A stretch of DNA of 64,000 bases from an uncultured Lachnospiraceae bacterium (lineage in GTDB: Bacteria > Bacillota > Clostridia > Lachnospirales > Lachnospiraceae): NCBI GenBank assembly GCA_947632515.1, contig CANRPO010000013.1:1-64000 (forward strand), read 5' to 3'. Positions 3 to 19,572 of this stretch are shown piece after piece (within the stretch, counting starts at the first letter, position 1; every line of letters begins with the position of its first letter). The notes beneath the pieces are model-generated. The model saw only the letters and a list, made by a program, of their open reading frames with translations. It did no database searches and had not been told where the DNA came from. The translations under genes were made by a program, and so were the position numbers.

Positions 3-233
3 ATCCACAGCATCTTAAACAGCATACCCGAAACCATAGAATTGGTAAAGAGTGGGTATGACTCTATAATACGAGGAGGGGATATAATAACCTTGCAATT
101 ATTTTCAAGAATGCGAGATCAGAATTGAAAAATTAGCGCATCTACGGTTAGAGAATTATTAAAAAATAGATTCGAAGACGCAGTTCCATTGTTATCGGTA
201 TTTAGCAGAAAAAGGATAGAGAGACAGTTATGA
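3..233 (+). pseudogene. 3' end of a HIGH-superfamily nucleotidyltransferase (cytidylyl/adenylyltransferase, CitC/TagD-like C-terminus), interrupted by an in-frame TGA at 126-128; truncated by window start
   Basis: Frame 3 reads ...GYDSIIRGGDIITLQLFSRMRDQN-TGA-KISASTVRELLKNRFEDAVPLLSVFSRKRIERQL-TGA. The IS-A/S-T-x-VR motif is typical of nucleotidyltransferase C-termini. The final TGA (231-233) overlaps the next ATG (230-232) in an ATGA coupling. Confidence 0.5.
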
Positions 234-1483
234 AAAAAGTACTTTGGTTATGTAATACCATGTTGCCCGAACTGTTTGGCAGATTTAGGGTTTATAATGT
301 GAAAGAAGGTTGGCTGATTGGAATATCTCAGGAACTCAGAAAAAGAGATGATATAGAGTTACATTATGCCTGTCCGCAGGTAAATGAAAAACGTATTGTA
401 AATATTAAGAAAGATTCTATTTATTTCCATTGTTTTTATAAAAAATATGACAACCCGTATACTGTGGAAGAGGATGCCAAAAATCAGATAAAAAAAATAA
501 TTAATACGGTGCAACCTGATATTATTCATATTTTTGGCACGGAAATGTCACATACGATTGAATGTGTGGAAAGTGTGAAAGCGAAAGAGAAAATTGTTAT
601 TTCAATACAAGGTTTGGTATCAGAATACGCAAAATATTACTTAAATGGTATTCCGCGTAGCGCATATTTGAATGGTTGCATTTACAATGGAAAGTATCAG
701 ACAATTTGGGGACAGTATAAAGAGTTTTGTAAACGTGCAGAAAATGAAATCCGAGCAATTAAGAATGTAAAACATGTGATAGGGAGAACCAACTGGGATA
801 AAGCATGCACTAATACTATCAATAGTAATTGTATGTATCACTATTGCAGTGAAACGTTAAGAGATTGCTTTTATGGTAAGAACTGGGATATCCAAAAAAT
901 AGATCGGTATTCTATTTTTGTCAGTCAGGGCGATTATCCGATTAAGGGACTGCATACATTGCTTTATGCAATGCCATATATTCTAAACCGATTCCCTGAC
1001 ACGAATTTATATATTGCTGGTGATGATTCTTTTTTAAACAATACGGCATATGGAAAATATATTAAAAAATTGATTGGGAAACAGAAGCTAGATAAGGCGG
1101 TTCACTTCTTGGGATTCATTAGAGCGGAAGATATGTGTGACAGGATGCAGAAATCTCATGTGATGGTTTTGCCATCCAACTGTGAAAATTCACCGAATTC
1201 TGTTGGAGAGGCGATGCTTGTTGGACTACCGATTGTTGCTGCTGATGTTGGCGGGGTATCCAGTATTGCGCATCATGGGTGGGATGCGATACTGTTTGAT
1301 TCTTGTGATGTGAAAAAGTTAGCAAAGTATGTGTGCGCCATTTTCAATAATGATCGGTTTGCACAAAGGTTATCGAAAAATGGGAATTTGACGGCAGTAA
1401 AATTATATGACCCTCAAAAAAATGTGGAGCGACTTATAGAAATATACAGGGAAATCAATGAGAAAAGATGTAAAAATGAATAA
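230..1483 (+). CDS. Glycosyltransferase family 4 (group 1)
   Basis: C-terminal GT-B features: VSQGDYPIKGLHTLLYAM, LGFI..EDM, PSNCENSPNSVGEAMLVGLPIVAADVGGV. Confidence 0.9.
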   Translation: MKKVLWLCNTMLPELFGRFRVYNVKEGWLIGISQELRKRDDIELHYACPQVNEKRIVNIKKDSIYFHCFYKKYDNPYTVEEDAKNQIKKIINTVQPDIIHIFGTEMSHTIECVESVKAKEKIVISIQGLVSEYAKYYLNGIPRSAYLNGCIYNGKYQTIWGQYKEFCKRAENEIRAIKNVKHVIGRTNWDKACTNTINSNCMYHYCSETLRDCFYGKNWDIQKIDRYSIFVSQGDYPIKGLHTLLYAMPYILNRFPDTNLYIAGDDSFLNNTAYGKYIKKLIGKQKLDKAVHFLGFIRAEDMCDRMQKSHVMVLPSNCENSPNSVGEAMLVGLPIVAADVGGVSSIAHHGWDAILFDSCDVKKLAKYVCAIFNNDRFAQRLSKNGNLTAVKLYDPQKNVERLIEIYREINEKRCKNE

Positions 1484-1684
1484 ATGGAAAGTATTACGGG
1501 GAAATAGAAATATTTAAAATGCGGATTTATTTTATTTGTCTCCTAAACATTATGGATAAGAAAATAAAGATAAATAATATACTATATATGAGAATTTTTA
1601 GTATATATGATCCCAGAGGGCGTTTGAGTGATAGGCGTGTTATATCTAATTTTATTGTACAAGTGCTAATAGGAGGAGTATAAA

Positions 1685-2161
1685 ATGAAAAAATTAACAC
1701 TTTCAATATTATCGACATTGGTAGGTGCTGCAGCCGCAGCTGCAACGATTAAAAAAGTTACCGATAAAAAAACAGACGTACAACGAAAGATGTCAGAAAA
1801 GCATTTGGCGTTGTTCATGCTGATGAACCAGTGGGTAGCAGTAAAGCAGGAAGGGAAAAATTTGGCAGATTATTTCGTGAAAAGGGGATATAAGATCATA
1901 GCGATTTATGGAATGAGCTATGTGGGGGAACGTCTTTTGGAGGAATTAAGAGGTAGTGATATCCAAATAAAGTACGGTATTGACCAAAGGGCAGGTGCAA
2001 TTTATTCAGATATTGAAGTTGTAACCATGGAGGATGAGTTGACGTCAGTAGATGCGATCGTAGTTACGCCTGTCTTTTTCTATGATGAAATTGAAGAGAA
2101 ACTGTCAAAGAAAACAGATTGTCCAATTCTCTCGATAGAGGATATTTTATATGAAGTGTAG
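1685..2161 (+). CDS. Small protein with N-terminal hydrophobic segment and a stand-alone Rossmann-like (YGMSYVG) module
   Basis: N-term LTLSILSTLVGAAAAAATI; C-term IIAIYGMSYVGERLLEEL...IKYGIDQR...VDAIVVTPVFFYDEIEEKL. AGGAGG upstream. Confidence 0.7.
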   Translation: MKKLTLSILSTLVGAAAAAATIKKVTDKKTDVQRKMSEKHLALFMLMNQWVAVKQEGKNLADYFVKRGYKIIAIYGMSYVGERLLEELRGSDIQIKYGIDQRAGAIYSDIEVVTMEDELTSVDAIVVTPVFFYDEIEEKLSKKTDCPILSIEDILYEV

Positions 2162-2187
2162 AGCGTATTGATGGAGTGAGAGAAAAA

Positions 2188-3195
2188 ATGTTTTCAAATT
2201 TTGTGTCATTAGGTGGTTCTTGTTATACAGCGTCCTCTATGTCAAAATATGGACTGCGAAGTTGGTCTGGACCGTTTGATTGGTTGGTGAGTAATGATTT
2301 TGAATGGATATTGCATTATTTAGAAAATGATTTTGCAGATTTTTTACTTAGAGAGAATTTGGATCGTTGGAACGGATATGCCGGGAAATTTAGGGATAAG
2401 AAAAGCGGTTTTATTTTTCAGCATGACGAGGAATATCCATTTGAGGAGGAGTATGATAAACTGAGATTGAAATATCAAAAGAGAATTAATAAATTTCTGG
2501 AAGAAATAAAGAAACCTACATGTTTTTTACGTTTCACAGCAGATGCGCATGAAATGGAGTATATATCGAATAATTCTAATTATATTAAGGGAGTTATAAA
2601 GAGTAAGAACGAACACAATGAGATCGTTTTCCTGGTAAGGGATACGATAGAATATTCAGAAACGATTTCATTTAGACATTACATATTGTCAATCAAACAT
2701 GCTGGAAAAAATGCGCCTACCCGAGAAGAGCTTAGGAATGCATTTGACGGATCTGATGCATTCTTGGAATATTGTGCCTCTAATTATAATTCGTTGGAAC
2801 TTATGCGGAATATAATATTTGACCATAAAAAAGAGGAACGATTTCGACAAGATCAGGCCAGATATCATACATTGATAAAACTCTTAGAATTTGATTTTTC
2901 ACAAATTCAGTTTCCGGAAGAAATTATCATATATGGTGCGGGTAATATTGGTAAGTATTTATATCAGAAAGTGAAAGGGAAATGCAGAATAAGGTGTTTT
3001 GTTGATCAAGAGAAGGATGGAGTAATTGACGGAATACCCATAATGAAGTTGGAGGAGATTGATGCTGATGAAAATATAAATGTTGTTGTCACGCCTACAT
3101 ATGATTTCGCAAACATTTTTGAGAAAGTGAAGGCACACTGTAGTAAAGCAGTTGTGGATTCATTAGATGATATATTGGATATGCTTGAGTTTTAA
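2188..3195 (+). CDS. DUF1796 family (putative papain-like cysteine peptidase fold) with C-terminal Rossmann-like module
   Basis: FVSLGGSCYTASSMSKYGLRSWSGPFDWL matches the DUF1796 N-term signature; C-term IIIYGAGNIGKYLYQKVKG...FVDQEKDGVIDGIPIMKLEEI. Start could also be GTG at 2176. Confidence 0.75.
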   Translation: MFSNFVSLGGSCYTASSMSKYGLRSWSGPFDWLVSNDFEWILHYLENDFADFLLRENLDRWNGYAGKFRDKKSGFIFQHDEEYPFEEEYDKLRLKYQKRINKFLEEIKKPTCFLRFTADAHEMEYISNNSNYIKGVIKSKNEHNEIVFLVRDTIEYSETISFRHYILSIKHAGKNAPTREELRNAFDGSDAFLEYCASNYNSLELMRNIIFDHKKEERFRQDQARYHTLIKLLEFDFSQIQFPEEIIIYGAGNIGKYLYQKVKGKCRIRCFVDQEKDGVIDGIPIMKLEEIDADENINVVVTPTYDFANIFEKVKAHCSKAVVDSLDDILDMLEF

Positions 3196-3262
3196 TTGCA
3201 TTCATTGATATACTGGAATTTACAAATGCAAATATGTCAAAAGGAATAGGGAATTGGTATTT

Positions 3263-4450
3263 ATGAATCAGATAAAGCCCAAGATAACAGTTATCACTGT
3301 TTGTAAGAACAGCGATCGTACAATAGAGCAAACAATACAAAGTGTCATAACACAGAATTATTCTGATTTAGAATATATTGTTGTGGATGGTCGTTCTACA
3401 GATAAAACAGTGGATATAATTCACAAATATGAAAAGTATATTTCGTGTTGGTCAAGTGAATCGGATACTGGAATATATGATGCGATGAACAAAGGGATTA
3501 AAATGGCGACGGGAGATTATGTCGCTTTCCTGAATAGTGACGATTGGTATAATGAAGGAGCCATTCAGTATGTCGCTGAAGACATAATGAAATACGGGGC
3601 GGATGTTTCGTCTTTTAGTATGAATGTATATGACGGGGATGAGCAGTTAGAGTGGGGGGATGCTTTTTCGAAAGATATAAAAAATATCAGAATTGCCATG
3701 TGTCGCTGTCATCAAGCGATTTTTGCCAGGCGAGTGCTATTTGAAAAATATGGAGCGTTTAATGTAAAATATAAAGTTTCAGCAGATTATGACTGGTTAT
3801 TAAGATTGTATGATAATGGCGTAGACATCCGTTACGACAGCTATGCCATAGTGAATTATCGGTTGGGCGGTGTTTCTGACTACCGAGATATTGAAATGAG
3901 AAGAGAGGCGCAGGCTATTGCTACACTGGCATTAAATAGATTACGGGAGGAGAGAAAGATACGAGAAAAAGAATATTGTTTTTGGCAAGATAAGATTGTG
4001 AACCATTATAATAAAGCAAGAACGGATAGTGCGATGAAACGGTTGATCGAGGAGCCAAAGGCGCCAAAAGATGTTGAGATGGTAAAGAACAATTTGGAAA
4101 AAGAAGTATTAAGAGAAAACAGATATTCCATTTTTGGATGTGGAAATTTTGGCGTAGAATGCTTTAGGTTATTGCGGCTATTAGGTTATCAGGCGGATTG
4201 CTTTTGGGATAATGATCAGAAAAAATGGGGAACATTCTGGGAAGGAATTGTTGTAAGACCACCATATGAGATAGAAAAAGGGAAATCAAAAATAATTATT
4301 TCTACAGAAAAGTATTTTGAAGAGATCGGTAAGCAGATGCAGAAGATGGGATTGGAAGATAAAATTGACTATTTGGATTATAATATAATTCGTAAAAGGA
4401 TTGGGGAAATTATGGAAACGGCCATGATGTCTGATGAGTATGATGAATAG
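3263..4450 (+). CDS. Glycosyltransferase family 2 with C-terminal Rossmann-like module
   Basis: ITVITVCKNSDRTIEQTIQSVITQNYSDLEYIVVDGRSTDKT; FLNSDDW; C-term RYSIFGCGNFGVECFRLLRLLGYQADCFWDND. Confidence 0.88.
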   Translation: MNQIKPKITVITVCKNSDRTIEQTIQSVITQNYSDLEYIVVDGRSTDKTVDIIHKYEKYISCWSSESDTGIYDAMNKGIKMATGDYVAFLNSDDWYNEGAIQYVAEDIMKYGADVSSFSMNVYDGDEQLEWGDAFSKDIKNIRIAMCRCHQAIFARRVLFEKYGAFNVKYKVSADYDWLLRLYDNGVDIRYDSYAIVNYRLGGVSDYRDIEMRREAQAIATLALNRLREERKIREKEYCFWQDKIVNHYNKARTDSAMKRLIEEPKAPKDVEMVKNNLEKEVLRENRYSIFGCGNFGVECFRLLRLLGYQADCFWDNDQKKWGTFWEGIVVRPPYEIEKGKSKIIISTEKYFEEIGKQMQKMGLEDKIDYLDYNIIRKRIGEIMETAMMSDEYDE

Positions 4451-5870
4451 AGAAAAAATAGTAATTTTTGGCGTTGGAAGAAAGTATCGATATATCAGAG
4501 AAAAATATATTGATTTCCTGCAGAAATATGATATAGTTGCATATTTGGATAATAATGAGGATTTATGGGAAACCCCGCTTGATAATAGCATTATTATGCC
4601 CCCCAGGTTTATACAAAAAACAGAGTATGAAAAAGTGATACTTATGGCAGATTATGTAAAAGACATGAAAAAACAATTGCTTGGGTTGGGCGTGCCGAAA
4701 GATAAGATCGCGTTATGGGATGAATTTTTTTGTAAGGCTCAGCAGGGAGAGTTTTTTACATATGGGCAGATTCCATTCCATCTTTCAGCAAAAAAGCGCA
4801 TGCTGTTGATTTCTGTAGAACTTGCCTATAATGGGGGAACGATGGCTATTGTAAATGCGGCTATTGCATTAAAATTACAGGGCTATGACGTTACGATTTG
4901 TGCTGCCGGCGGAAATGATAAACTGATAGAGGAAATCGTTAGCCATAATATTCGGATCGTAATTGTGCCTGCTATTAATTATCCGGAAGAAATGGAATTA
5001 AATTGGGTTCGCCAATTTGACATTGTCATAGTAAATGTATTTCAGATGATCCGATGTGCCTGTGAGATCAGTTGTATTAAGCCTGTTATCTGGTGGATAC
5101 ATGAGTGCAGTCATGAACAAGTTGAAATTTATGCAAGGATCAGAGATAATTATTCCGAATATGATAATCTTGCAGCCATGAGGAATATAAGGATAGTGGC
5201 TGTAAGTGCTATTGCAGCAAAAAATTTTAATTTTTTTTATAAAGACAGAATTAAAGAAATTCTACCATACGGAGTATTGGATCTCTATTCCGATCGTAAT
5301 AATGATGTACATGGCAAGTGTGTTTTTGCAATAATTGGATCTGTATTGCCGAGAAAAGCCCAATCGGTTTTTTTAGATGCGGTGGCTATGTTGGCTAAGG
5401 AAGAAAAGGAAAATACAGAATTTTGGATTGTTGGGAACTGTGGAGAAGATCCATATTCTGTTGAAGTGCGTGAAAAATCAGAAAAAATGCCAGAAGTGAA
5501 AATGTTAGGGGAACTGGACAGGGAACATGTGCAGGAGAAGTATGCCCAAATATCTGTGGTAGTCTGTGCGTCGCTGGAGGAGACAATGTCTATGGCAATT
5601 ACTGAGGCGATGATGAATGAAAAGGTCTGTATTACTACAGATGCAACAGGAATGGCAGATTATATAGAAGATGGAGTAAACGGATTTATTTGTCATGCAG
5701 GCGATACAGAGAGTTTATATGAAAAAATGAAATGGGTATTAAATCATAAAGAACAGTGGAAAGAGGTCGAGAGAAACGCAAGAGATACTTATGAAAAATA
5801 TTTTACGTTGGATAAATTTGGGCAGCGATTGCAGAAGGTGATCGGGTCTGTCTTGGAAATGGAGCTATGA
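4434..5870 (+). CDS. Glycosyltransferase family 4 with N-terminal Rossmann-like module
   Basis: N-term EKIVIFGVGRKYRYIREKYIDFLQKYDIVAYLDNNEDLWETPLDNSIIMPP; C-term GT4 ASLEETMSMAITEAMMNEKVCITTDATGMADYI. Overlaps the previous CDS by 17 bp. Confidence 0.88.
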   Translation: MSMMNREKIVIFGVGRKYRYIREKYIDFLQKYDIVAYLDNNEDLWETPLDNSIIMPPRFIQKTEYEKVILMADYVKDMKKQLLGLGVPKDKIALWDEFFCKAQQGEFFTYGQIPFHLSAKKRMLLISVELAYNGGTMAIVNAAIALKLQGYDVTICAAGGNDKLIEEIVSHNIRIVIVPAINYPEEMELNWVRQFDIVIVNVFQMIRCACEISCIKPVIWWIHECSHEQVEIYARIRDNYSEYDNLAAMRNIRIVAVSAIAAKNFNFFYKDRIKEILPYGVLDLYSDRNNDVHGKCVFAIIGSVLPRKAQSVFLDAVAMLAKEEKENTEFWIVGNCGEDPYSVEVREKSEKMPEVKMLGELDREHVQEKYAQISVVVCASLEETMSMAITEAMMNEKVCITTDATGMADYIEDGVNGFICHAGDTESLYEKMKWVLNHKEQWKEVERNARDTYEKYFTLDKFGQRLQKVIGSVLEMEL

Positions 5871-5929
5871 CAAAAAGCAAGCAGAGGTATTAGGATAATA
5901 CGGATCAGGACACTGGAGAAAGAAGATCG

Positions 5930-7159
5930 ATGAAAAATGTTTATGATGTCCTAAAAGAAAATAACTTGGTTTACATACTATCGGAAGAATATTCAAAAAA
6001 GGAATATTCATATTCTGCTTTTGAATCCACAGTAATTGTAGTAAACTTGTATTATCCAGATCGCTTGAAAGCTTATTTTGCATATTTGGATCAGATTCCA
6101 TGTGAAATAAATGTATATATTATATCATCCAATCCATTGGCGGAGAAAGAAATAAAGAATTATGTCAGTAACAAAAATAATTTTCATTATATTAGGAAAG
6201 AAAACAGAGGTCGGGATGTCAGCGCATTATTGGTAACTGCAAGAGATATCATATTAAAATATAAGTATATCTGCTTTGTTCATGATAAAAAACCTAATTT
6301 TGATCATTTGTCAGAGGATATTAGTTTTTGGAATCGAAATCTATGGGACAATTCATTAAAATCAGAGCAGTATATCCATAATGTGTTGGAGATTTTTGAA
6401 AAACATGATGATATTGGACTTCTTGTGCCGCCGAAACCAATCGGACGGTATATGTCTGAATGGTATTCGAACGCATGGTATGAAAACTTCGAAATAGTAC
6501 AGCAACTCTGCAAAGAGTTTGATCTTAAATGCGATTTGGATCCTCGAAAACCGGTTATTACGCTTGGAACTGTTTTTTGGGGGCGGACACAGATATTTTG
6601 GAAAATTTTAGCAAGAAAGTGGAGATACGAGGATTTTGCGGACGAGCCGATGCCGATAGATGGAACTATCAGTCATGGATTGGAGCGTATTCTGGCATAT
6701 GCGGCACAGGATGCAGGCTTTAATACAGGTATAGTAATGTGTGATAGTTATGCAGGAACATTATATGGGAAAGTGCAGGATATGATGCAACGTACATATC
6801 AATGTCTGCAGGAAAATTTCCAGATTGGACAGATGGATCAGTTGGTGAATTATAAAAGGCAAAAGGAGCAGATAGTGGAGGCTTTTAAAAGGAATCAATC
6901 GGTGTATTTATATGGCGCCGGCCATTACGGAAGTCGGTTCCTTAAAATAATGCATTTATGGGGGTATCAGCCAAAAGGTTTCTTGGTGTCAGACGGATAC
7001 AGAAAAATGGATTTTATTGAGGAATATCCTGTGTGGGAGCTTGGAGAATTGCAGGATTCAAATGTTGTGATCGCTATTACGGCAAGCTATGAAAAACATT
7101 ATGAGATGGAGAGCAATTTGAAAGAATATGGCATAACAAACTATTTTTTCGCTTGTTAA
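5930..7159 (+). CDS. Rhamnan synthesis protein F (RgpF)-like glycosyltransferase with C-terminal Rossmann-like module
   Basis: FHYIRKENRGRDVSALLVTARDIILKYKYICFVHDKKP is RgpF-like; C-term SVYLYGAGHYGSRFLKIMHLWGYQPKGFLVSDG. Confidence 0.82.
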   Translation: MKNVYDVLKENNLVYILSEEYSKKEYSYSAFESTVIVVNLYYPDRLKAYFAYLDQIPCEINVYIISSNPLAEKEIKNYVSNKNNFHYIRKENRGRDVSALLVTARDIILKYKYICFVHDKKPNFDHLSEDISFWNRNLWDNSLKSEQYIHNVLEIFEKHDDIGLLVPPKPIGRYMSEWYSNAWYENFEIVQQLCKEFDLKCDLDPRKPVITLGTVFWGRTQIFWKILARKWRYEDFADEPMPIDGTISHGLERILAYAAQDAGFNTGIVMCDSYAGTLYGKVQDMMQRTYQCLQENFQIGQMDQLVNYKRQKEQIVEAFKRNQSVYLYGAGHYGSRFLKIMHLWGYQPKGFLVSDGYRKMDFIEEYPVWELGELQDSNVVIAITASYEKHYEMESNLKEYGITNYFFAC

Positions 7160-7208
7160 AACGCCATATCGGTTGCGGATAAGGTGGGATGATGGGGAAA
7201 TTAGAGCA

Positions 7209-8297
7209 ATGACATATTTATTTGCGCCAATAGCAGTGGATTTCAACCAAAATGAAAACAGCAATATCGCAGGAAAGATCAAGCTGTTGGGAGGAAATTC
7301 GGGGAATCTCGTATGGTTTGAGTCTGTTAGAAAAACTATAAAATATGATTTTATGGGTCAACAATTATCTGATGATATGAAGACGTCCAATATTGTATTC
7401 CCGATGGCCAATCAAATTAATGTACGAGACAGCGTTTTAGAGTTTTATGCCCTGCACACAAAAAATTATGATGGCAGGATAACCATGATCGGTCTTGGGG
7501 CACAGTTGACGAAGGAATTAAATACCCCTAAAAAACTTGTAGCAGCATTACCACAAAAACGGAAACATGCCTTGAAAGAACTTAGTTCCCGTACGGAAAC
7601 TATCGGAGTAAGGGGAAGTATTACTGCTGAATGTTTGGATCTGATGGGAATAACAAATTATAGAGTTATAGGCTGTCCGTCATTTTATATGAAATGCGAT
7701 ACGAAAGCTTATAGCAAAAAGGCATCAGCAGACAAGTTGTGTGTGAGCTGGGGGTCTGTCGATTATGTCAGAGAACAGTATGTAAGAGAGTTCTTCAGAC
7801 GCAGTATTCCTCGTGGCGGGGAAGATATCCTGTTATTGCAGGCAATGGATGACTTCCCGCGGGTCTTATATGAAGATGCCCCTTTATTGGAGCGACATAT
7901 TAAGAGCCGTTATCCGGATATATGGGGGGGGGTCAACGCCGATGAAATAGCGTCTTATATAAAAACGCGCGGGTGTATGTTTTTTGATTGGGATTCATGG
8001 CAGGATTTTTTGAAAAGAGAACAATTTACATTATCTGTAGGATGTAGATTTCATGGGAATATGATGTCATATCTTGCAGGGATACCCGCATTGTGGATCG
8101 TACATGACAGCAGAACATATGAATTATGCGAGACTATGGCATTACCTTATATAACGCTTGAACAGGCTGTAAAGATGGAAAGTCGTGAGCAGTTTGCAGA
8201 GTGTTGCACATATGGAGAAAAATTTTATAGGAATCGTGAACGGATGCAGCAGATATATGAGAGGTTTTTAGACGAGAATGGAATTGAGCGCATATGA
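7209..8297 (+). CDS. Polysaccharide pyruvyl transferase family protein
   Basis: ITMIGLGAQL...SSRTETIGVRGSITAECLDLMGI.NYRVIGCPSFY...LSVGCRFHGNMMSYLAGIPALWIVHDSRT. Internal ATG 7209 preferred over ORF start 7173. Confidence 0.85.
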   Translation: MTYLFAPIAVDFNQNENSNIAGKIKLLGGNSGNLVWFESVRKTIKYDFMGQQLSDDMKTSNIVFPMANQINVRDSVLEFYALHTKNYDGRITMIGLGAQLTKELNTPKKLVAALPQKRKHALKELSSRTETIGVRGSITAECLDLMGITNYRVIGCPSFYMKCDTKAYSKKASADKLCVSWGSVDYVREQYVREFFRRSIPRGGEDILLLQAMDDFPRVLYEDAPLLERHIKSRYPDIWGGVNADEIASYIKTRGCMFFDWDSWQDFLKREQFTLSVGCRFHGNMMSYLAGIPALWIVHDSRTYELCETMALPYITLEQAVKMESREQFAECCTYGEKFYRNRERMQQIYERFLDENGIERI

Positions 8298-9436
8298 AAA
8301 GAATTGACGTAATTGTTCCAATATATAAAGGGCAATGTTATGTAGAAGGAATGATTTCTCAGCTTGAGCAATCTGCAGAAAAGGTAGACAGAACTGTAAA
8401 GATCGGTTTGATCTTGGTAAATGACGATCCTAAAGATTATTTTCGAGAGAGCTATTGTTCGGAAAAGATAGATATTCTTGCAATGGAGACCGATCAAAAC
8501 AGAGGGATACATGGCGCGAGAGTGAGAGGATTAACTTATTGCACAGGGGATTATGTTGTTTTTTTGGATCAGGATGACAGGATTTCCCCGGACTATTTCG
8601 TTAGCCAATTGGGTTCGTTGGGGGAGGCGGATGCAGTCATATGCAGAGCGATAAATGGAGGACGGCTGTTTTATGCATATGATAAACCATTTAAAGAGAT
8701 GATTTCTTTGGGGCACATGTTTTCTAAGGGGAATGGAATTCTTTCACCAGGTCAGGTACTGATGCGACGGGAAGCGATCCCACAGTTTTGGCAGGAGAAT
8801 ATTTTACGGTACAATGGGGCGGACGACTGGCTGCTTTGGATATGTATGTTATATGAGGGGATGCGTTTTGCGGAAAATCAGGCGGTGTTGTATGAACATG
8901 TCATTGGCAGCGAGAACAGTTCGGGGAGTGCTTTTGGGATGTATCAGTCGGAGAGGGAAATGTATGGGATATTGCGGGAACAAAAATACCTTGACACGGG
9001 ACATCTGGCACAGTTGTGGCAGGCACTTCAGAGAGGTCTGGAAACAAGGTTAAAGGAGTTGGACAGGCTGAAGGCGGCAGAAGATATATATGCTATATGG
9101 CTGAATGCCAGGGGAGAAAAAGTTTCTGTTGCACAAATGTTAAAACTTGCAGGTTATAAAACGGTAGCAATTTATGGCATGGGCAAAATGGGAATGCGCC
9201 TATATCAGGAAATCAAGATGGAAATAGAGGTAAAGTGCTATATAGATAGAAATGCAGCATATTTGAAAGCAGATATACCGATTTATACTTTGGAAGATGA
9301 TATTCCGCAGGTGGATCTCGTTATTATTGCACTGGCTGACAGGGAGCACAGAATTCAAAAGGATGTTTCAAATACAATTAATTGCCCGGTTAAGGGGATA
9401 GAAGAAATTTTGCGGGATATGCTGGCAGAGAGGTGA
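8294..9436 (+). CDS. Glycosyltransferase family 2 with C-terminal Rossmann-like module
   Basis: RIDVIVPIYKGQCYVEGMISQLEQS; DYVVFLDQDDRISPDYF; C-term TVAIYGMGKMGMRLYQEIKMEIEVKCYIDRNA. ATGA overlap with the previous gene. Confidence 0.88.
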   Translation: MKRIDVIVPIYKGQCYVEGMISQLEQSAEKVDRTVKIGLILVNDDPKDYFRESYCSEKIDILAMETDQNRGIHGARVRGLTYCTGDYVVFLDQDDRISPDYFVSQLGSLGEADAVICRAINGGRLFYAYDKPFKEMISLGHMFSKGNGILSPGQVLMRREAIPQFWQENILRYNGADDWLLWICMLYEGMRFAENQAVLYEHVIGSENSSGSAFGMYQSEREMYGILREQKYLDTGHLAQLWQALQRGLETRLKELDRLKAAEDIYAIWLNARGEKVSVAQMLKLAGYKTVAIYGMGKMGMRLYQEIKMEIEVKCYIDRNAAYLKADIPIYTLEDDIPQVDLVIIALADREHRIQKDVSNTINCPVKGIEEILRDMLAER

Positions 9437-9443
9437 GTTATAA

Positions 9444-10526
9444 GTGGTAAAAATACGGAATTGCACATCAGATCAATTTGTGGGAAGGGTAGAAAACAGT
9501 AAATTGATTTGTATCTGCGCAGGTGATAATTTTAAAAAATTTTGTGAAGATTATCCGCTTGTGCCACAGATAGTATGTGTGGTGGATAATTTTAAAGCAG
9601 GGACAGTACTTCAGATTGGAAGTCGAAAAATCCCTGTGGTTTCTATGGAGCAAATAGAACAGATCCCGGAAGAGACGGTACTGATATTGACTTCCGTTAA
9701 AGTGGCAGATGAAATTATACCACAATTAGATCAGAGTAGCATATTTCAAGGTAAAATATTGTATGTACCTGAAATATTTAAAAGAGATAAAACGGAGTTT
9801 GCATTAAAGTCCGGTTCTGTACAAATCATTCCCAAAATCATACATTATTGTTGGTTTGGCGACAATCCTATGCCAAAGAGTTTTCAGGAAAATATTGATA
9901 CATGGAAGAGACACTGCGCTGATTATGAGATAAAACAGTGGAACGAAAGAAATTATGATATTTCAAAAAATAAATATATGTTGCAGGCATACGAAAATAA
10001 GAAATGGGGGTTTGTTCCGGATTATGCAAGGCTTGATATTGTAGCATCACAAGGGGGAGTATATCTTGATACAGATGTAAAAGTAGTACGGTCTTTTGAT
10101 TCGTTACTGCAGTTTGGGCTGTTTTGCGGCTTTGAGAGCAAAACAAGGATCAATTTTGGGCAAGGGTTTGGAGCGAGAAAGGGGCATCCGATAATAAAGG
10201 AGATGCAAAAAGAGTATGAAAATATGGAATTTGTAAATCCGGACGGGACCATGAATACAGATCCATCCCCTATATATCAGACTAGAGTTTTGAAGAGGCT
10301 GGGTTTGACTATAAATGGAACACTTCAACAAAAAGATGATGTCATTGTATTATCGCCGGAATATTTTTCACCAACAAATGAGTTTGGGTATGGCCGGCCA
10401 ACAGAAAATACTTTTTCGATACACCAATATGATGGTAGCTGGTATGATGAAGAACAACGTAAAATGAGAGAAAAAACGGCCAAAAATTACCAATATATAA
10501 TTGGACGAGCGGCGGGAGAAAAATAG
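9444..10526 (+). CDS. GT32/OCH1-like DXD sugar transferase with divergent N-terminal Rossmann-like module
   Basis: IPKIIHYCWFGDNPMPKSFQENIDTWKRHCADYEIKQWNERNYD...WGFVPDYARLDIVASQGGVYLDTDVKVV. GTG start. Confidence 0.87.
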   Translation: MVKIRNCTSDQFVGRVENSKLICICAGDNFKKFCEDYPLVPQIVCVVDNFKAGTVLQIGSRKIPVVSMEQIEQIPEETVLILTSVKVADEIIPQLDQSSIFQGKILYVPEIFKRDKTEFALKSGSVQIIPKIIHYCWFGDNPMPKSFQENIDTWKRHCADYEIKQWNERNYDISKNKYMLQAYENKKWGFVPDYARLDIVASQGGVYLDTDVKVVRSFDSLLQFGLFCGFESKTRINFGQGFGARKGHPIIKEMQKEYENMEFVNPDGTMNTDPSPIYQTRVLKRLGLTINGTLQQKDDVIVLSPEYFSPTNEFGYGRPTENTFSIHQYDGSWYDEEQRKMREKTAKNYQYIIGRAAGEK

Positions 10527-10529
10527 AAT

Positions 10530-11486
10530 ATGGTAATACTGTATGGGTTGGGTTCACATAGCAGAAATATAGCAACAATGTATAATATTCCAATGGATGA
10601 GATAGAAGTAATTATTGACAATAATCTTTCAAAATGTGAGCCGTATTATGGAATGGTTATTTCGTGGGAAGAGTATTTGCGCCGAAGGACAGAATACCGT
10701 TCTACGCAGTTGGTGATAGGTGCAAAGTATCGGTTTGATGAGATAAGAGAAGAAGTATTGGCAAGCGGATTATTTGGAATTGCCGATATTATTGGAATCG
10801 AAAAGTGGGCAGAAGAAAACTTTGTAAAGAGAAGATTATTAGGGCAATATATTGATGAGCGTGAATGTATGAACGCTAGGATACTCTCGGAACGAGTTGG
10901 AAGTATTTCGCAAAAGCTTCTCGAAGAAGCGATGGTTTTATGCAGTCGGTATGAAGCTTTAGACCGACTTCCCAAGGGTGGGCGAGTGGCAGAGATCGGT
11001 GTTGCATATGGAGATTTTTCAAAAGAAATTCTTACAAAGATGAAACCAGAGAAATTTTATGCAGTTGACCTTTTTTGCGAATCGGTTGGTTTTTGGAATA
11101 ACGGTTTATTCGAAGAGTCTCAGATGACACATTATGAATGGTATGCAGATAGATTTTCGGATTATATCAGTTCCGGAACGCTAATAATGGAAAAAGGCTT
11201 TTCCTGGGATGTGATGGAGAGGTTCCCTGATTGTTATTTTGATTATATATATCTTGATGCGGCGCATGATTATGCAAGCGTAGAAAAAGATATTATACAG
11301 ATCGTAAAGAAAATAAAACAAGGTGGTATTATTCAATTTAATGATTACACATTTCAAGAGGGATATGGAGTGATCCCGGCTGTGAATAGAATGATCAAAG
11401 AGATGAATGCAAAAGTATTGTATTATTGTCTTTCGCCTAATGGTTATGCAGATCTGGTCGTGCAGATGAGAAAACAGGAGTTGTAA
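10530..11486 (+). CDS. Class I SAM methyltransferase (Methyltransf_24 type) with N-terminal Rossmann-like module
   Basis: N-term MVILYGLGSHSRNIATMYNIPMDEIEVIIDNN; C-term GGRVAEIGVAYGDFSKEIL...FYAVDLF...YDYIYLDAAHDYASVEKDI. Confidence 0.8.
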   Translation: MVILYGLGSHSRNIATMYNIPMDEIEVIIDNNLSKCEPYYGMVISWEEYLRRRTEYRSTQLVIGAKYRFDEIREEVLASGLFGIADIIGIEKWAEENFVKRRLLGQYIDERECMNARILSERVGSISQKLLEEAMVLCSRYEALDRLPKGGRVAEIGVAYGDFSKEILTKMKPEKFYAVDLFCESVGFWNNGLFEESQMTHYEWYADRFSDYISSGTLIMEKGFSWDVMERFPDCYFDYIYLDAAHDYASVEKDIIQIVKKIKQGGIIQFNDYTFQEGYGVIPAVNRMIKEMNAKVLYYCLSPNGYADLVVQMRKQEL

Positions 11487-12680
11487 ATGATAAGTCTGAT
11501 TGTTCCGGTTTACAATATCAAAAAATACCTTGATCGATGTGTTTCAAGTATTCTTACGCAGACATATAAGGAATTTGAATTGATTTTGGTCGATGATGGT
11601 TCAACGGATGGTTCATCAGATGTATGTGATTTTTATGTAAGGCAAGATAGTAGAGTTATTGTCATACACAAACAAAATGGCGGACTTGTCAGCGCAAGAA
11701 AATCAGGGCTTAAAATTGCTCAGGGGGAGTATATAGGATTTGTTGATGGTGATGATTGGATAGAACCACAGATGTATGAACATCTGATGAGCTTGGTCAC
11801 AGAATATCAAGCGGATATGGCGCTTGGAGGCAGTATCGAAGATGTAAATGGGCAGACCATATATAAAACAAACTATTTAAAACCAGGAGTATATGATAAA
11901 GAAAGGCTCTGTAGGGATGTGTATCCTTATATGCTTTGTGCAGGGGAATTTTTTTGTATGGGAGTTCAACCATATATCTGGAACAAATTGATACGCCGCG
12001 ACCTTACAAATAAGCATATGTGGACGATAGATGACCGAATACGGATTGGCGAGGACGTGGCAGCAGTGGTGCCCATGCTTTTGATGGCGGATAAAGTCGT
12101 TATATCAGATGCCTGTGATTATCACTATTGTATTAGAGAAACATCTATGATGCGGCAGAAAAATGAGAACAGAGAATGGGATGAAGTGTGTATTCTGCAT
12201 AGGTTTCTTGAATCAGTATTTTCGATATATTTGTTGAAATATGCTGATTTGGAGCGTCAGTTAAGTCATTATACAATCGGAAATATGCTTACCAGAGCGT
12301 ATGAAAAGCTTGCAGGCAAAGACGGGGCGAATATTTTATGGCCCTTTGGTTATCAAATAGGCGCCAATAAGTGCATTGTGTATAGTGCCGGAAATTTTGG
12401 ACAGGCGGTGTATGGCTATTTGCAGAGAAACCACGGGGAAAAGTGCGCTCTTTGGGTCGATCGACAATATCAAAGGTATCGATCTTGTGGAATGTCTGTG
12501 TGTTGCGTAGAGGATGTACTCAAGGAAAAGCAGGCAGATATACTGATTGCTGTGCTTAGTCTGGAGTTGGCTAAGGTCATTCGGGAAGATTTGTTACGGA
12601 TGGGGATAAGCACTGAACGAATATATTGCATCAATGTAACAGATGATGACATTAAAGAAATACTTCTCAGTATATGCTAA
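11487..12680 (+). CDS. Glycosyltransferase family 2 with C-terminal Rossmann-like module
   Basis: MISLIVPVYNIKKYLDRCVSSILTQTYKEFELILVDDGSTDGSSDVCD; C-term KCIVYSAGNFGQAVYGYLQRNHGEKCALWVDRQY. Confidence 0.92.
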   Translation: MISLIVPVYNIKKYLDRCVSSILTQTYKEFELILVDDGSTDGSSDVCDFYVRQDSRVIVIHKQNGGLVSARKSGLKIAQGEYIGFVDGDDWIEPQMYEHLMSLVTEYQADMALGGSIEDVNGQTIYKTNYLKPGVYDKERLCRDVYPYMLCAGEFFCMGVQPYIWNKLIRRDLTNKHMWTIDDRIRIGEDVAAVVPMLLMADKVVISDACDYHYCIRETSMMRQKNENREWDEVCILHRFLESVFSIYLLKYADLERQLSHYTIGNMLTRAYEKLAGKDGANILWPFGYQIGANKCIVYSAGNFGQAVYGYLQRNHGEKCALWVDRQYQRYRSCGMSVCCVEDVLKEKQADILIAVLSLELAKVIREDLLRMGISTERIYCINVTDDDIKEILLSIC

Positions 12681-12698
12681 TTGGAGATGAAGGAAGTT

Positions 12699-13748
12699 AT
12701 GCAGAATATTTACATAGTCGGAGCCCATTCAAGAGCGCGTACACTAGGGGTGTATCTTAAGAAATTATATACGGACATAAGGATTGAGGCTTATTTGTAT
12801 GACAATGATGAACTAAATCCGGATAACATTGAAGGGATTCCGGTAATCCATTTTGATGAAAGTATGTTATTGAGGACGGATTATACTGTTTACTTAGGAA
12901 CAAGGGGCATTTACCACCCCGCACTGACGGAAAAATTACAGCGAATGGGAATGAAAAAAATTGTTCCGGTGACACCGCAATTGGATCTTGAACTGCGTAA
13001 TCACTTTCTGTCTCTATATTATGCGGAAACGGGAAGAAACTTTGACAAGCTTGATACTCTATCCAAGGCTGTCGTTATTTATGTAGTGAGGTCTGTGTTT
13101 GACAAACCACTCCAACAGTCATATTCGTTGTCCGCATTCCGGCAGGAGATCCAGGTAGGGGCAGCATTGACGGAAGAAAGAATATGTGAATTAGCTGATA
13201 ATACAGGAGAAAATATTTCCGAGAGAAATCGCCAGTTCTGTGAGTTGACAGCATTGTACTGGATTTGGAAAAATGCAAGGCAGGATATCGTGGGGCTTGA
13301 GCACTATCGCAGACATTTTTTGTTTCAGGATGACTGGTATCAGAAAATGCGAGATCATAATGTAGACGTGATTTTGCCGACGCCTCTTTATGTGACGCCG
13401 AATATTGCACAGAATTACAAGGACAGGCACATTGTTTCCGACTGGGAATTTATGATGGATTATCTGCGGCGGATCTATCCAAAAGACTATAAGAAAGCGG
13501 TTTCGTTTTTTGCTACTAATTTGTATTCGCCTTGTAATATGTTCGTCATGAAGAAAGATATTTTGGATGATTTATGCATGTGGCTGTTTCCCATTCTCTT
13601 TATCTGCGCAGAGCATGGCGGAGAGCGGGAAGATGCTTATCAGAATCGCTATCCGGGATTTCTGGCAGAGCGTTTGATGACTTTTTTCTTTGAAAAAAAC
13701 AGGGATAAATATAAGATCGTGTATGCAGACAAAGGGTTTCTTGGCTGA
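12699..13748 (+). CDS. DUF4422 (putative glycosyltransferase) with N-terminal Rossmann-like module
   Basis: N-term NIYIVGAHSRARTLGVYLKKLYTDIRIEAYLYDNDELNPDNIEGIPVIHF; C-term QVGAALTEERICELADNTGENISERNRQFCELTALYWIWKN...VGLEHYRRHF. ATG 12699 has a good SD (GAAGGAAG). Confidence 0.83.
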   Translation: MQNIYIVGAHSRARTLGVYLKKLYTDIRIEAYLYDNDELNPDNIEGIPVIHFDESMLLRTDYTVYLGTRGIYHPALTEKLQRMGMKKIVPVTPQLDLELRNHFLSLYYAETGRNFDKLDTLSKAVVIYVVRSVFDKPLQQSYSLSAFRQEIQVGAALTEERICELADNTGENISERNRQFCELTALYWIWKNARQDIVGLEHYRRHFLFQDDWYQKMRDHNVDVILPTPLYVTPNIAQNYKDRHIVSDWEFMMDYLRRIYPKDYKKAVSFFATNLYSPCNMFVMKKDILDDLCMWLFPILFICAEHGGEREDAYQNRYPGFLAERLMTFFFEKNRDKYKIVYADKGFLG

Positions 13749-13807: not shown

Positions 13808-14479
13808 ATGTATTATGAATTGACCGCATCAATGATGTGCGCTGACTATGGCAATCTGGAAAAAGAGGTAAGGGAACTGGACGAAGGCGGCATAGACTCC
13901 TTCCACATTGACATCATGGACGGGCGCTATGTACCCAATTTTGCCATGTCGTTAAATGACATGAAGTACATAGCCGGCGCGACAAAAAGGCCGCTCGACG
14001 TACACCTGATGATAGAACATCCCAACAACAACGTCCAGCTTTTTTTAAACAATCTAAGACGTGGCGATACAGTCTACATCCACCCGGAGGCGGAATATCA
14101 TCCATCCACGACGCTGCAGAAGATCATCGATGCGGGCATGGTGCCGGGCATAGCTATCAATCCCGGGACGAGCGTGGAAACGGTCTATGAGATGCTGCGC
14201 ATTGTCAAAAAGGTGCTTGTCATGACCGTGAATCCCGGAAACGCGGGACAGATGTACATGCCCTATGTCGGGGAGAAGATAAAAAGGCTGCTGGCATTAA
14301 AGGAGAAGATGAAGTTCCGGCTCTACTGGGACGGCGCGTGCAGCGCGGATAAGATCCTGCAGTTCGCACCGATGGGAATGGACGGGTTCGTGCTGGGCAC
14401 AACGCTCCTTTTTGGGAAGGGAAAGCCATACAGCGGAGCCATACAGGAAATCCGTAAGTATTGCAGCGATATTGGATAA
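13808..14479 (+). CDS. Ribulose-phosphate 3-epimerase family protein, divergent (AlsE-like)
   Basis: SMMCADYGNLEKEV, FHIDIMDGRYVPNFAMS, LDVHLMIEHP, VMTVNPGNAGQMYMP, DGFVLGTTLLF. Confidence 0.85.
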   Translation: MYYELTASMMCADYGNLEKEVRELDEGGIDSFHIDIMDGRYVPNFAMSLNDMKYIAGATKRPLDVHLMIEHPNNNVQLFLNNLRRGDTVYIHPEAEYHPSTTLQKIIDAGMVPGIAINPGTSVETVYEMLRIVKKVLVMTVNPGNAGQMYMPYVGEKIKRLLALKEKMKFRLYWDGACSADKILQFAPMGMDGFVLGTTLLFGKGKPYSGAIQEIRKYCSDIG

Positions 14480-14502
14480 CGAAAATACCGTGGAGGATCA
14501 TG

Positions 14503-15201
14503 ATGGCAGTTGCATTGATTTTGTCAGGAGGGAATGGCGTGCGTATGGGGCTGGATATTCCCAAGCAGTACGTTGAGGTAAACGGCAGATCGGTCATTTC
14601 CTACTGCATTGAACGGTTATCGCGCCATGAACGGATCCATGCGATACAGATCGTGGCGTCATCCGACTGGCAGGCACAGATACGGCAGAGCCTTGAAAAA
14701 TATGATATTAACGGGAAATTCCGGGGTTTTTCGACTCCGGGACAAAACAGGCAGCTGTCTGTTTACCATGGACTGGAGGATGTCAGAAAATATGCGGAGG
14801 ATTCGGATGTAGCGCTGGTGCACGATGCGGCGAGGCCGCTGGTCTCTGAACAGATGATAACAGACTGTCTGGAGGCGGTACAGGGACATGACGGCGCAGT
14901 GCCTGTCCTGCCGATGAAGGATACGGTATATCAGAGCATAGATGGAAAGAGGATCAGCGGACTGGTAAGACGGAGCGAAATCTATGCGGGGCAGGCGCCG
15001 GAGGCATTTCGGATAGGGGCATACTATGAGGCGAACAGGAGGCTGTGCCCTGACAGGATATTGGAGATTAACGGCTCCACGGAACCTGCGGTCATGGCGG
15101 GGATGGATATTGTCATGATAGCGGGCGACGAGGGCAATTTTAAGATCACGACAATAGAGGATTTAAAACGGTTTCAGGAGATCGTAAGCAGGGAGCGGTA
15201 A
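14503..15201 (+). CDS. IspD/TarI-like cytidylyltransferase
   Basis: VALILSGGNGVRMGLDIPKQYVEVNGRSVISYCIE; VALVHDAARPLVSEQMI; EGNFKITTIEDLKRFQEIV. SD GGAGG at 14492. Confidence 0.88.
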   Translation: MAVALILSGGNGVRMGLDIPKQYVEVNGRSVISYCIERLSRHERIHAIQIVASSDWQAQIRQSLEKYDINGKFRGFSTPGQNRQLSVYHGLEDVRKYAEDSDVALVHDAARPLVSEQMITDCLEAVQGHDGAVPVLPMKDTVYQSIDGKRISGLVRRSEIYAGQAPEAFRIGAYYEANRRLCPDRILEINGSTEPAVMAGMDIVMIAGDEGNFKITTIEDLKRFQEIVSRER

Positions 15202-15202
15202 G

Positions 15203-16255
15203 ATGAGGGCATGGGTTTTGCATGGTGTTGACCACATATGTTTGGAGGAAACGGAAGAACCGGATCTGGCAGAAAATGAAACGCTTGTTTCAGTTAAGGC
15301 GGCCGGCATCTGCGGATCGGACATTCCCAGAATATACAAAACGGGAGCGCATGTGCATCCGCTGATACCCGGTCATGAATTTTCGGGGCAGGTAATAAAA
15401 ACGGGGGAAAAAGCAGACAGAAAATGGCTCGGTAAGCGTGTCGGTATTTTTCCGCTTATTCCGTGCGGGATCTGTACCGCGTGCAGGAAAAAACAGTACG
15501 AATTATGCCGTAACTACAACTATCTGGGTTCACGCACAGACGGCGGCTTTGCGGAATATGCGGCAGTCCCGGAGCGGAATCTGATAGAACTGCCCGACAG
15601 CGTATCCTATGAGGAGGCGGCGATGCTGGAGCCCATGGCGGTGGCAGTGCATGCAATGCGAAGAGTGCAGATGCAAAAGAGTGACACAGTTGTTGTCTAT
15701 GGACTTGGGACGATCGGCATGCTGCTTTTTCTGTTCCTAAAGGATGCCGGGTTTGAAAATCTTCTTGCGGTAGGGAACAAAGAGTTTCAAAAAGAGACGA
15801 TACTGAAATTTGGAGCGGATGAAACATGTTACTGTGACAGCAAAGCGCAGAATGTTTCCGAGTGGCTGATGCGGCGGACGGATCGAAGGGGAGCGGATGT
15901 GGTTTTTGAGTGTGTGGGAAGGAACGAGACCGTTTCGCAGGCGGTCGATCTGACAGCGCCGATGGGGCGCATTTGCATGGTCGGGAATCCATATTCGGAC
16001 ATGACTCTGGAAAAGAATGTCTATTGGAAAATTTTAAGAAACCAGATCACGATAACCGGTACATGGAATTCTGCTTTTACGCATCAAAACGATGACGACT
16101 GGCATTATGTGCTTGACAGACTGGCGCGGAAAAGAATTTCGCCGAGAGAACTGATCTCCCACGAGCTGGATCTGTGTGACGCGGAGAGAGGGTTCCTGAT
16201 CATGCGGGATAAAAGAGAAGATCATATGAAAGTGATGATACGCATATCCGGATGA
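15203..16255 (+). CDS. Zn-dependent medium-chain alcohol dehydrogenase (galactitol-1-P 5-dehydrogenase/TarJ-like)
   Basis: GICGSDIPRIYKTGAHVHPLIPGHEFSGQV; CGICTACRKKQYELCRNYNYLGSRTDGGFAEY; VYGLGTIGMLL. Confidence 0.88.
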   Translation: MRAWVLHGVDHICLEETEEPDLAENETLVSVKAAGICGSDIPRIYKTGAHVHPLIPGHEFSGQVIKTGEKADRKWLGKRVGIFPLIPCGICTACRKKQYELCRNYNYLGSRTDGGFAEYAAVPERNLIELPDSVSYEEAAMLEPMAVAVHAMRRVQMQKSDTVVVYGLGTIGMLLFLFLKDAGFENLLAVGNKEFQKETILKFGADETCYCDSKAQNVSEWLMRRTDRRGADVVFECVGRNETVSQAVDLTAPMGRICMVGNPYSDMTLEKNVYWKILRNQITITGTWNSAFTHQNDDDWHYVLDRLARKRISPRELISHELDLCDAERGFLIMRDKREDHMKVMIRISG

Positions 16256-16368: not shown

Positions 16369-16914
16369 ATGAAAAAGCTTTCTGTGAAAACCGTTGTTGC
16401 GATTGGTATCGGCGCGGCGCTGTTCTTTGTTCTGGGTAAGATCTCCATACCCACGCCGGTCCCGAATACATACATCAGTCTGCAGTATGCGATCGAGGCG
16501 GTGTTCGCGACGCTCTTCGGGCCGATCGCGGGTCTGCTGATCGGATTCATCGGACATACGCTTGTCGACGCGACGAGCTATGGACCGTGGTGGAGCTGGA
16601 TTATTGCGTCCGCGTGCGTTGGTCTGATTATCGGGCTTATCACGATGAAATTAGACTTAAGCGAGGGGATCGACACGAAGAAGATCGTCACTTTTAATGT
16701 GGCGCAGATCGTCGCACATCTGCTCGCCTGGGGGCTGATCGCCCCGGTGCTTGACATTCTGATCTACAGCGAGCCTATCGAGAAACTGTTCGCGCAGGGA
16801 TTGATGGCAGGCGTGGCAAATATCATCACGACGGGAGTTGTCGGCACGTTACTGCTGATCGCGTATGCGGAGACGGTCGTGAAGAGAGGCTCTTTGAAAA
16901 AGGAAGAGGACTAA
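16369..16914 (+). CDS. ECF transporter S component (UPF0397 family)
   Basis: [78 protein letters not shown]. Confidence 0.88.
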
Positions 16915-16932
16915 ACGATTATAGGTACAGCT

Positions 16933-16966
16933 GAGAGCTGCTGCTGATGAGGCGGCGGCTCTTTTT
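16933..16966 (+). terminator. Possible intrinsic terminator/attenuator between the S and A components
   Basis: AGAGCTGCTGC...GCGGCGGCTCT stem (with G-U pairs) followed by TTTTT. Confidence 0.5.
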
Positions 16967-17016
16967 GCGAAAAATTCTATTAAGGCATGGGCAGTACACA
17001 AGAAGGAGCGTAGAAC

Positions 17017-18726: not shown

Positions 18727-19572
18727 ATGGCGCGGATCGCGATATTGAGTTATATCAAGCGGGAGAGTTTTGTACACGAGTTGACGGGAAGGGCAAAGCT
18801 GGTCTTTTTCCTCGCATGGAGCGTGGCCTCCATGGTGACCTATGACACGAGAGTGCTGGTCTGCATGCTGCTCTTTAGCTTTGTGATCTTTAAAGTCAGC
18901 CGGATCAGGGTGAAGGACATCAGCTTTGTGCTGGGGCTGGCGGCGGTCTTTCTGCTGATGAACAATCTGTTCGTCTATCTGTTCTCGCCGGAGTACGGCG
19001 TGGGGTTGTATCAGAGCAGAACGGTGCTTTTTACCATTGCAGGACCTTACACTGTCACGCTGCAGCAGTTGTTCTATCACCTGAATATGACGATGAAGGT
19101 GGTCTGTGTCGTGCCTGTGGCGCTTTTGTTTATCGCCTGCACGGATCCCAGCGAGTTTGCGTCCTCGCTGGCCAGCATCGGCGTCAGCTACCGCATCGGC
19201 TACTCGGTCAGTCTGGCGCTGCGCTATATCCCGGACATACAGCGCGAGTACCACAATATCAGCCAGGCGCAGCAGGCGCGGGGGATCGATCTGTCCGGCA
19301 AGGATAAGCTGTTTACGAGAATGAAAAATTCAGTGGCGATCCTGCTGCCTCTGGTGCTGTCAAGTTTAAACAGGATCGAGACGGTCAGCAACGCCATGGA
19401 GCTGCGCGGGTTCGGCAGGAACAGGAAACGGACCTGGTACAATCTGCGGAAAATGCAGAAGAACGACTGGATCGTGACAGCGCTTGCCATTGCGATCCTG
19501 GCGGTCGATCTGATCGTGACATTTTGGGACGGCAGCAGATATTACAATCCTTTTCTGTCCGGGCCATTCTGA
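18727..19572 (+). CDS. ECF transporter T component
   Basis: LRYIPDIQREYHNISQAQQARGIDL and multiple TM segments; adjacent to EcfA/S. Confidence 0.88.
   Translation: MARIAILSYIKRESFVHELTGRAKLVFFLAWSVASMVTYDTRVLVCMLLFSFVIFKVSRIRVKDISFVLGLAAVFLLMNNLFVYLFSPEYGVGLYQSRTVLFTIAGPYTVTLQQLFYHLNMTMKVVCVVPVALLFIACTDPSEFASSLASIGVSYRIGYSVSLALRYIPDIQREYHNISQAQQARGIDLSGKDKLFTRMKNSVAILLPLVLSSLNRIETVSNAMELRGFGRNRKRTWYNLRKMQKNDWIVTALAIAILAVDLIVTFWDGSRYYNPFLSGPF

Follow-up and report, generated by a model that had tools for sequence, protein, structure and literature searches.

Organization of the locus

The window analysed here comprises the first 64,000 nucleotides of contig CANRPO010000013.1 from an uncultured Lachnospiraceae bacterium (GenBank assembly GCA_947632515.1). 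It begins at the contig start, and twelve co-directional genes on the forward strand, from position 230 to 13748, are separated by short gaps or overlap. The single larger spacing within this run, of 201 bases, precedes the gene at 1685. Ten of the twelve genes encode a copy of a Rossmann-like module of about 80 amino acids, mostly fused to enzymes of surface glycan synthesis. An earlier note, made by reading the letters alone, had described the module in these ten genes, alone in one protein, C-terminal in five and N-terminal in four. Profile matches place all ten segments where the note had put them and in the same orientations.

The stand-alone copy is encoded by the gene at 1685..2161, the ATG of which is preceded by a ribosome-binding-like aggagg. 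Its 158-residue product has a predicted membrane anchor and is a candidate hub protein; it belongs to a conserved family, termed S here, and was modelled by AlphaFold2 with a mean predicted local distance difference test (pLDDT) score of 89.6. Residues 3-55 (1691..1849) form an N-terminal hydrophobic anchor and a long conserved linker helix, followed by module copy 1 (1886..2158). The description of this protein as a stand-alone module thus holds in that it contains one free module, but it is incomplete, as the hydrophobic segment and the helix of about 50 residues precede the module. The gene directly upstream (230..1483) encodes a GT4 glycosyltransferase (Pfam PF00534, 1.6e-27). This protein and the polysaccharide pyruvyl transferase at 7173..8297 (PF04230, 1.7e-14) lack the module, as had been claimed.

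The C-terminal copies belong to a DUF1796 protein (2176..3195; PF08795, 2e-14; copy 2 at 2917..3192), an RgpF-like protein (5930..7159; PF05045, 1.9e-62; copy 5 at 6893..7156), and three GT2 glycosyltransferases. The GT2 genes are located at 3254..4450 (PF00535, 1.2e-27; copy 3 at 4112..4432), 8294..9436 (copy 6 at 9152..9433), and 11487..12680 (PF00535, 1.1e-35; copy 9 at 12366..12677). Copy 6 is of the S subtype and includes the linker helix, with a match to the S-family profile at 9032-9418. N-terminal copies are present in a GT4 glycosyltransferase (4434..5870; PF00534, 8.8e-28; copy 4 at 4449..4742), a GT32/DXD-type transferase (9444..10526; PF04488, 4.8e-12; copy 7 at 9492..9791), a methyltransferase (10530..11486; PF13578, 5.5e-9), and a DUF4422, WbbM-like transferase (12681..13748; PF14393, 2.8e-50). 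On copy 4, PF22674 matches at 0.0016, below its cut-off. The methyltransferase carries the most divergent copy, copy 8 (10530..10823). Copy 10, of the DUF4422 protein (12699..13001), was both matched by profile and modelled by AlphaFold2 within the complete protein, with a predicted template modelling score (pTM) of 0.87.

The modules form one family with a Rossmann-like fold

In an alignment of the ten window segments, the other copies are 14-36% identical to copy 6. A profile built from the ten copies ranks the same ten places at the top of a genome search, with expectation values (E) of 4e-31 to 3e-21, which follows from its construction, as it recovers its own members. The independent test used relatives only, with a profile of 567 modules from other genomes and no window sequence. 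Among 422 six-frame open reading frames (ORFs) of the window, this profile matches exactly the ten claimed ones (E 8.6e-22 to 3.6e-7). It has zero matches among reversed sequences and misses the other Rossmann proteins of the window, a TarJ-like alcohol dehydrogenase and an epimerase. Leave-one-out searches among the ten copies gave E 6e-13 to 5e-3, most of them significant; they are weak for the copies of 4434, 9444, 10530, and 12681, which depend on the profile of relatives.

The two AlphaFold2 models, of the 1685 protein and of the N-terminal copy of 12681, have their strands and helices in the same succession, predicted with high confidence, in line with the common fold that the earlier note had proposed to check. 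In the 1685 model, the module is predicted at a pLDDT near 95; its strands lie at residues 71-75, 94-99, 124-127, and 148-150, and its helices at 79-88, 133-141, and 151-157. In the 12681 module, the strands span residues 8-13, 33-40, 53-57, 69-72, and 93-96, and the helices 17-29, 76-88, and 99-116. A Foldseek search with the full 1685 model gave no match with E under 0.001, for which inclusion of the long helix is the probable reason; the top matches, at E ≥ 2e-3, are Rossmann proteins.

The proposed sequence motif, GxGxxG with D as in NAD(P)-binding Rossmann domains, is complete only in about a third to half of modules family-wide. The set G-x-[GA]-x-x-[GA] plus acid is present in full in 42% of N-terminal, 57% of C-terminal, and 34% of stand-alone modules. 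The first glycine is kept in 95-97% across all module types, and the aspartate at the end of strand 2 in 72-76% of fused and 98% of stand-alone copies.

The stand-alone copy belongs to a conserved family with a predicted anchor

The earlier note missed that the 1685 protein is a member of a conserved family. Proteins of the S family have a hydrophobic N-terminus, a helix with invariant W50 and near-invariant K54 and Q55, and a module with invariant Y75, G76, G81, D100, and D123. Identity to 1685 ranges from 40 to 66% for most stand-alone relatives. According to simple hydropathy, an N-terminal hydrophobic segment is present in 111 of 115 stand-alone proteins, and 584 of 641 fused carriers have no transmembrane segment. 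As judged by hydropathy alone, one component of the set is predicted to bear a membrane anchor.

When 85,462 GTDB species genomes were scanned with an alignment of five S-family members, 80 loci were identified, most of them labelled Lachnospiraceae or gut bacteria. Fused modules lie near the stand-alone copy in 77 of the 80, with a mean of 6.9 carriers per locus of about 20 kb. Within the family Lachnospiraceae, 31 genomes have four or more module matches, and S-type copies occur in 21 of these versus 3 of 169 others (Fisher 5.5e-18, somewhat inflated because S copies themselves count as module matches). When array slices from the family survey were read, an S-type copy, anchored or fused, was found in 21 of 32. 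S-type modules are fused to GT2, WbsX, and GT4 enzymes in 57 cases, copy 6 of the window being one; nearly all are C-terminal, and 53 of the 57 include the linker. Directly upstream of the stand-alone gene, a GT4 gene is more frequent than any other (31/113, against a background of 8%); in 27 of these 31 cases, the GT4 lacks the module. Stand-alone copies at two loci (L099 and L092) lie in records labelled Muribaculaceae and Bacteroides, perhaps misbinned contigs.

Module arrays recur and mark enzymes acting on the growing glycan

The survey for multi-copy operons that the earlier note had called for shows that the tagged array is general. At a threshold of 1e-5, the module was matched in 107 of 200 Lachnospiraceae genomes; about 31 of the 200 contain at least four matches, which mostly share a contig. 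Several further families of the same phylum also have arrays (G296:C4, G402:C13, and G228:C14 are examples), where single matches are mostly of the size of Rex. We read 40 array loci, the 80 loci found via the stand-alone protein, and the window, 121 loci with 2070 ORFs in total. Module carriers number 791, with 798 copies; the 796 well-aligned copies comprise 355 N-terminal, 275 C-terminal, and 18 internal ones and 148 in short proteins. These counts are approximate, as a simple ORF caller was used, and the two locus sets may overlap in part.

Seven proteins contain two modules. Two of these natural tandems, at L109:17101-19491 and L154:8035-10104, have the orders GT2-module-module-DUF4422, like genes 11487 and 12681 of the window joined, and GT2-module-module-methyltransferase. 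Elsewhere in the genome of the window, one contig ends in a further array (L079, G000:C27:25000-42587), which includes an anchored copy and may be the missing upstream half of the window locus.

The module is not an ordinary part of glycosyltransferase families; the earlier note had named the opposite outcome as one that would refute its claim. Of the 42 GT2 matches in the genome of the window, four lie within arrays (three on contig C13, one on C27), and all four have the module; it is absent from the others, about 37 on further contigs. The few module matches outside the arrays are found in this genome on contigs C11 (216 residues, Rex-sized), C14 (636 residues, CapD-sized), C7 (253 residues, weak), and C6 (a 395-residue protein).

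The partners of the module fall into more than 20 unrelated catalytic clusters, the labels of which are approximate, being taken from one representative each. Carriers make up 203/349 members of the GT2 superfamily, 50/150 of GT4, 49/52 of FkbM, 30/31 of RgpF, 30/57 of radical SAM, 16/28 of WbsX, 15/16 each of GT-D and DUF268, 12/17 of GT8, 12/12 of TylF, 10/12 of WcbI, 7/18 of LicD, and 7/29 of CDP-glycerol transferases; GT11 is also among the carrier folds. In the GT2 and GT4 families, the module is at either end or absent. Precursor-making clusters are nearly devoid of it: SDR/nucleotidyltransferase 1/98, DegT 0/34, asparagine synthase 0/22, cytidylyltransferase 0/17, ribulose-phosphate epimerase 0/17, TarJ 0/11, and GlcNAc 2-epimerase 0/9. 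Overall, 509 of 906 transferase-type ORFs carry the module versus 1 of 208 precursor-making enzymes, a comparison internal to loci that were chosen for holding modules. Since methyltransferases, radical SAM, and LicD proteins are tagged and sugar-nucleotide makers are not, the pattern tracks action on the growing glycan and not the use of sugar nucleotides.

Relationship to known domains

Solved structures that the family profile matches are 3nkl (CapD-like, 1.2e-11), 2g6t (7.3e-11), Rex (1.3e-9), VioB (1e-5), WbaP (1.6e-4), and the C-methyltransferase 4rv9 (2.7e-4). The fold is related to C2185-like_N, PglD_N, the CapD/WbaP accessory domain, and Rex; a likeness to PglD_N and CoA-binding Rossmann folds had been noticed earlier. 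Among 110 sampled modules, Pfam matches at E ≤ 0.01 include C2185-like_N (20/110) and PglD_N (19/110). None of the window copies attains a cut-off for such a domain in searches against Pfam and NCBIfam. The module therefore belongs to a known superfamily but to no curated family.

The C2185-like_N domain (PF22674; CAC2185, PDB 2g6t) is likewise a small N-terminal Rossmann-like domain. The match to 2g6t covers positions 1-92 of the module profile, and homology to this domain is evident in both sequence and fold. We infer from the name of the Pfam family that 2g6t, a homologue of HI1244, is CAC2185. The best match of PF22674 to a relative is 1.6e-13, whereas the best window score is 19.2 bits, below the 27-bit cut-off. 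Unlike C2185-like_N, the module also occurs at the C-terminus, alone, and anchored, in up to ten or more copies per locus.

PglD_N (PF17836) of the PglD/NeuD/VioB acyltransferases has the same fold order and GxG...D layout as the module. Its best match to a relative is 2e-7, and the best window score of 13.4 bits lies below the gathering cut-off of 23.4 bits; a six-frame search of the genome of the window found no PglD_N above the cut-off. The partners of PglD_N are left-handed beta-helix acyltransferases, whereas those of the module are mostly others. No such fusion is present in the window, and the hexapeptide cluster of the survey has only 7 carriers among 23 members.

The CoA_binding_3 accessory domain (PF13727) of WbaP and PglF/CapD is also Rossmann-like and is part of glycan enzymes at the membrane. 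In these enzymes, it lies between a four-helix transmembrane bundle and a single catalytic domain, a phosphoglycosyl transferase or dehydratase in the same chain. Module carriers do not have this architecture: the module occurs as a mobile tag across many folds, and its anchored copy has a single predicted transmembrane segment and no enzyme. In WbaP, this domain provides the majority of contacts in the dimer and binds uridine nucleotides; it is stabilised by uridine mono-, di-, and triphosphate (UMP, UDP, and UTP), and full-length WbaP is inhibited by UMP with a half-maximal concentration (IC50) of 4.1 uM (PMC10942596).

Methyltransf_14 (PF08484), the N-terminal domains of FkbM proteins (2py6), and Rex are related small Rossmann domains by profile. 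They are part of one enzyme or of a DNA-binding redox repressor and are not repeated across a locus, and no Rex-type N-terminal winged helix is among the Pfam matches of the window proteins.

A functional analogy is provided by O-antigen synthesis, in which membrane-associated proteins gather glycosyltransferases: WbdD recruits WbdA, and WbbN and WbbO interact with WbbM (PMC11231755). These systems rely on coiled coils or partner-specific contacts, whereas the window locus has a shared repeated module. The DUF4422 domain of 12681 is modelled like the WbbM glycosyltransferase (Foldseek to 6u4b, E 1.9e-17, 27% identity), which speaks to DUF4422 and less to the module. Literature searches, confined to open-licence papers, found no description of module arrays, which points weakly to novelty.

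Putative role of the module

To our knowledge, it is largely unknown how soluble enzymes of glycan pathways are gathered at the membrane in Gram-positive gut bacteria. We tentatively favour, with somewhat less than even confidence, the reading that the module is an accessory docking domain that recruits glycan enzymes to a membrane hub. One copy, that of the 1685 protein and its family, would be tethered to the membrane by the N-terminal anchor, and the others would be carried by the soluble enzymes of glycan assembly and modification. Fused copies would pair weakly with one another and with the anchored one and would keep the enzymes assembled on the cytoplasmic side of the membrane, beside a lipid-linked acceptor. 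The mutual binding, the exposure of the anchored copy to the cytosol, and the lipid-linked acceptor are all presumed here. The enzyme-class pattern and the anchored free copy together favour membrane recruitment, for which WbdD-WbdA, WbbN/WbbO-WbbM, and the accessory-domain dimer of WbaP may serve as precedents by analogy. Docking, one of the roles suggested by the earlier note, also fits the association of the module with arrays within one genome.

Several results weigh against docking. The nearest module has the same partner cluster in 72% of cases (expected 12%) and shares the orientation in 91% (expected 51%). Locus-specific likeness, through gene conversion or a matching code, was considered and rejected: identity is 20.8% within and 20.9% between loci. 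The copies thus follow their partners and not their locus, and there is no sign of locus-specific matching. Adjacency of a C-terminal to an N-terminal module in neighbouring genes was rejected as a pairing signal, as it is not enriched (24 observed, 24.3 expected with the N and C labels shuffled among carriers). In 11 of the 32 array slices, no S-type copy was present within the approximately 20 kb read. Because the modules travel with their catalytic partners, lack locus-specific similarity, and form some arrays without a hub, docking remains what we infer.

The same inheritance with the catalytic domain would be expected if the module were an intramolecular accessory domain that positions the acceptor or stabilises the enzyme, its clustering reflecting gene exchange within one kind of glycan locus. 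The pTM of the two-domain 12681 model suggests that the module could be tightly packed against the catalytic domain of its own chain, which also counts against docking, and FkbM, RgpF, GT-D, and TylF proteins are near-constant carriers. However, GT2 and GT4 enzymes bear the module at either end or not at all, and the free anchored copy without an enzyme is left unexplained; we consider this explanation unlikely. The main rival is a nucleotide or nucleotide-sugar sensor, by which a small molecule common to all the enzymes, such as UMP, UDP, or NAD(H), would give one feedback signal locus-wide. The profile relatives of the module, among them WbaP, VioB, CapD-like 3nkl, and Rex, together with the well-kept first glycine and strand 2 aspartate, speak for it, and the conserved glycine and aspartate of the stand-alone copies would suit a ligand. 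Sensing stays in play because the closest studied relative, the WbaP domain, both dimerises and binds uridine nucleotides; by analogy, a domain with both properties is possible in the module family. Nevertheless, the full glycine and acid set is often incomplete, sugar-nucleotide makers are untagged, and the tagged methyltransferases, radical SAM proteins, LicD proteins, and acyltransferases have no known requirement for a sugar nucleotide. We regard sensing as rather doubtful. The divergence of the copies, at about 21% identity, and their often broken ligand motifs could also indicate degenerate, functionless remnants of Rossmann enzymes spread by gene fusion. This is very improbable, given the fold, first glycine, and hydrophobic core kept over 796 copies, the close similarity and invariant W, Y, G, and D residues of the stand-alone family, and the extreme bias in enzyme class.

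Should docking be correct, a portable module shared by the enzymes and also present in free, anchored form would answer simply and testably how such enzymes are gathered. A more far-reaching version is that the module is a portable address tag, on either end of unrelated enzymes, which assembles whole pathways on the anchored copy and lets Lachnospiraceae swap enzymes and keep the complex; we regard it as somewhat doubtful. As a sequence tag, the module would mark glycan enzymes of unknown fold, and it would suggest a route to designed enzyme assemblies. Even if it serves in sensing, a previously undescribed domain on hundreds of glycan enzymes merits a family entry.

Genes downstream of the array

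The array is followed on the forward strand, at 13808..16255, by genes for a ribulose-phosphate epimerase (PF00834), an IspD/TarI-like cytidylyltransferase (PF01128), and a TarJ-like dehydrogenase (PF08240), all without the module. They suggest a supply of cytidine diphosphate-ribitol and a ribitol-containing glycan. The epimerase and TarJ clusters were found again in the surveyed loci, with 17 and 11 members, respectively. Further 3', at 16369-19572, a small membrane protein, a double ATPase, and a transmembrane component probably constitute an energy-coupling factor-type transporter, as judged from sequence.

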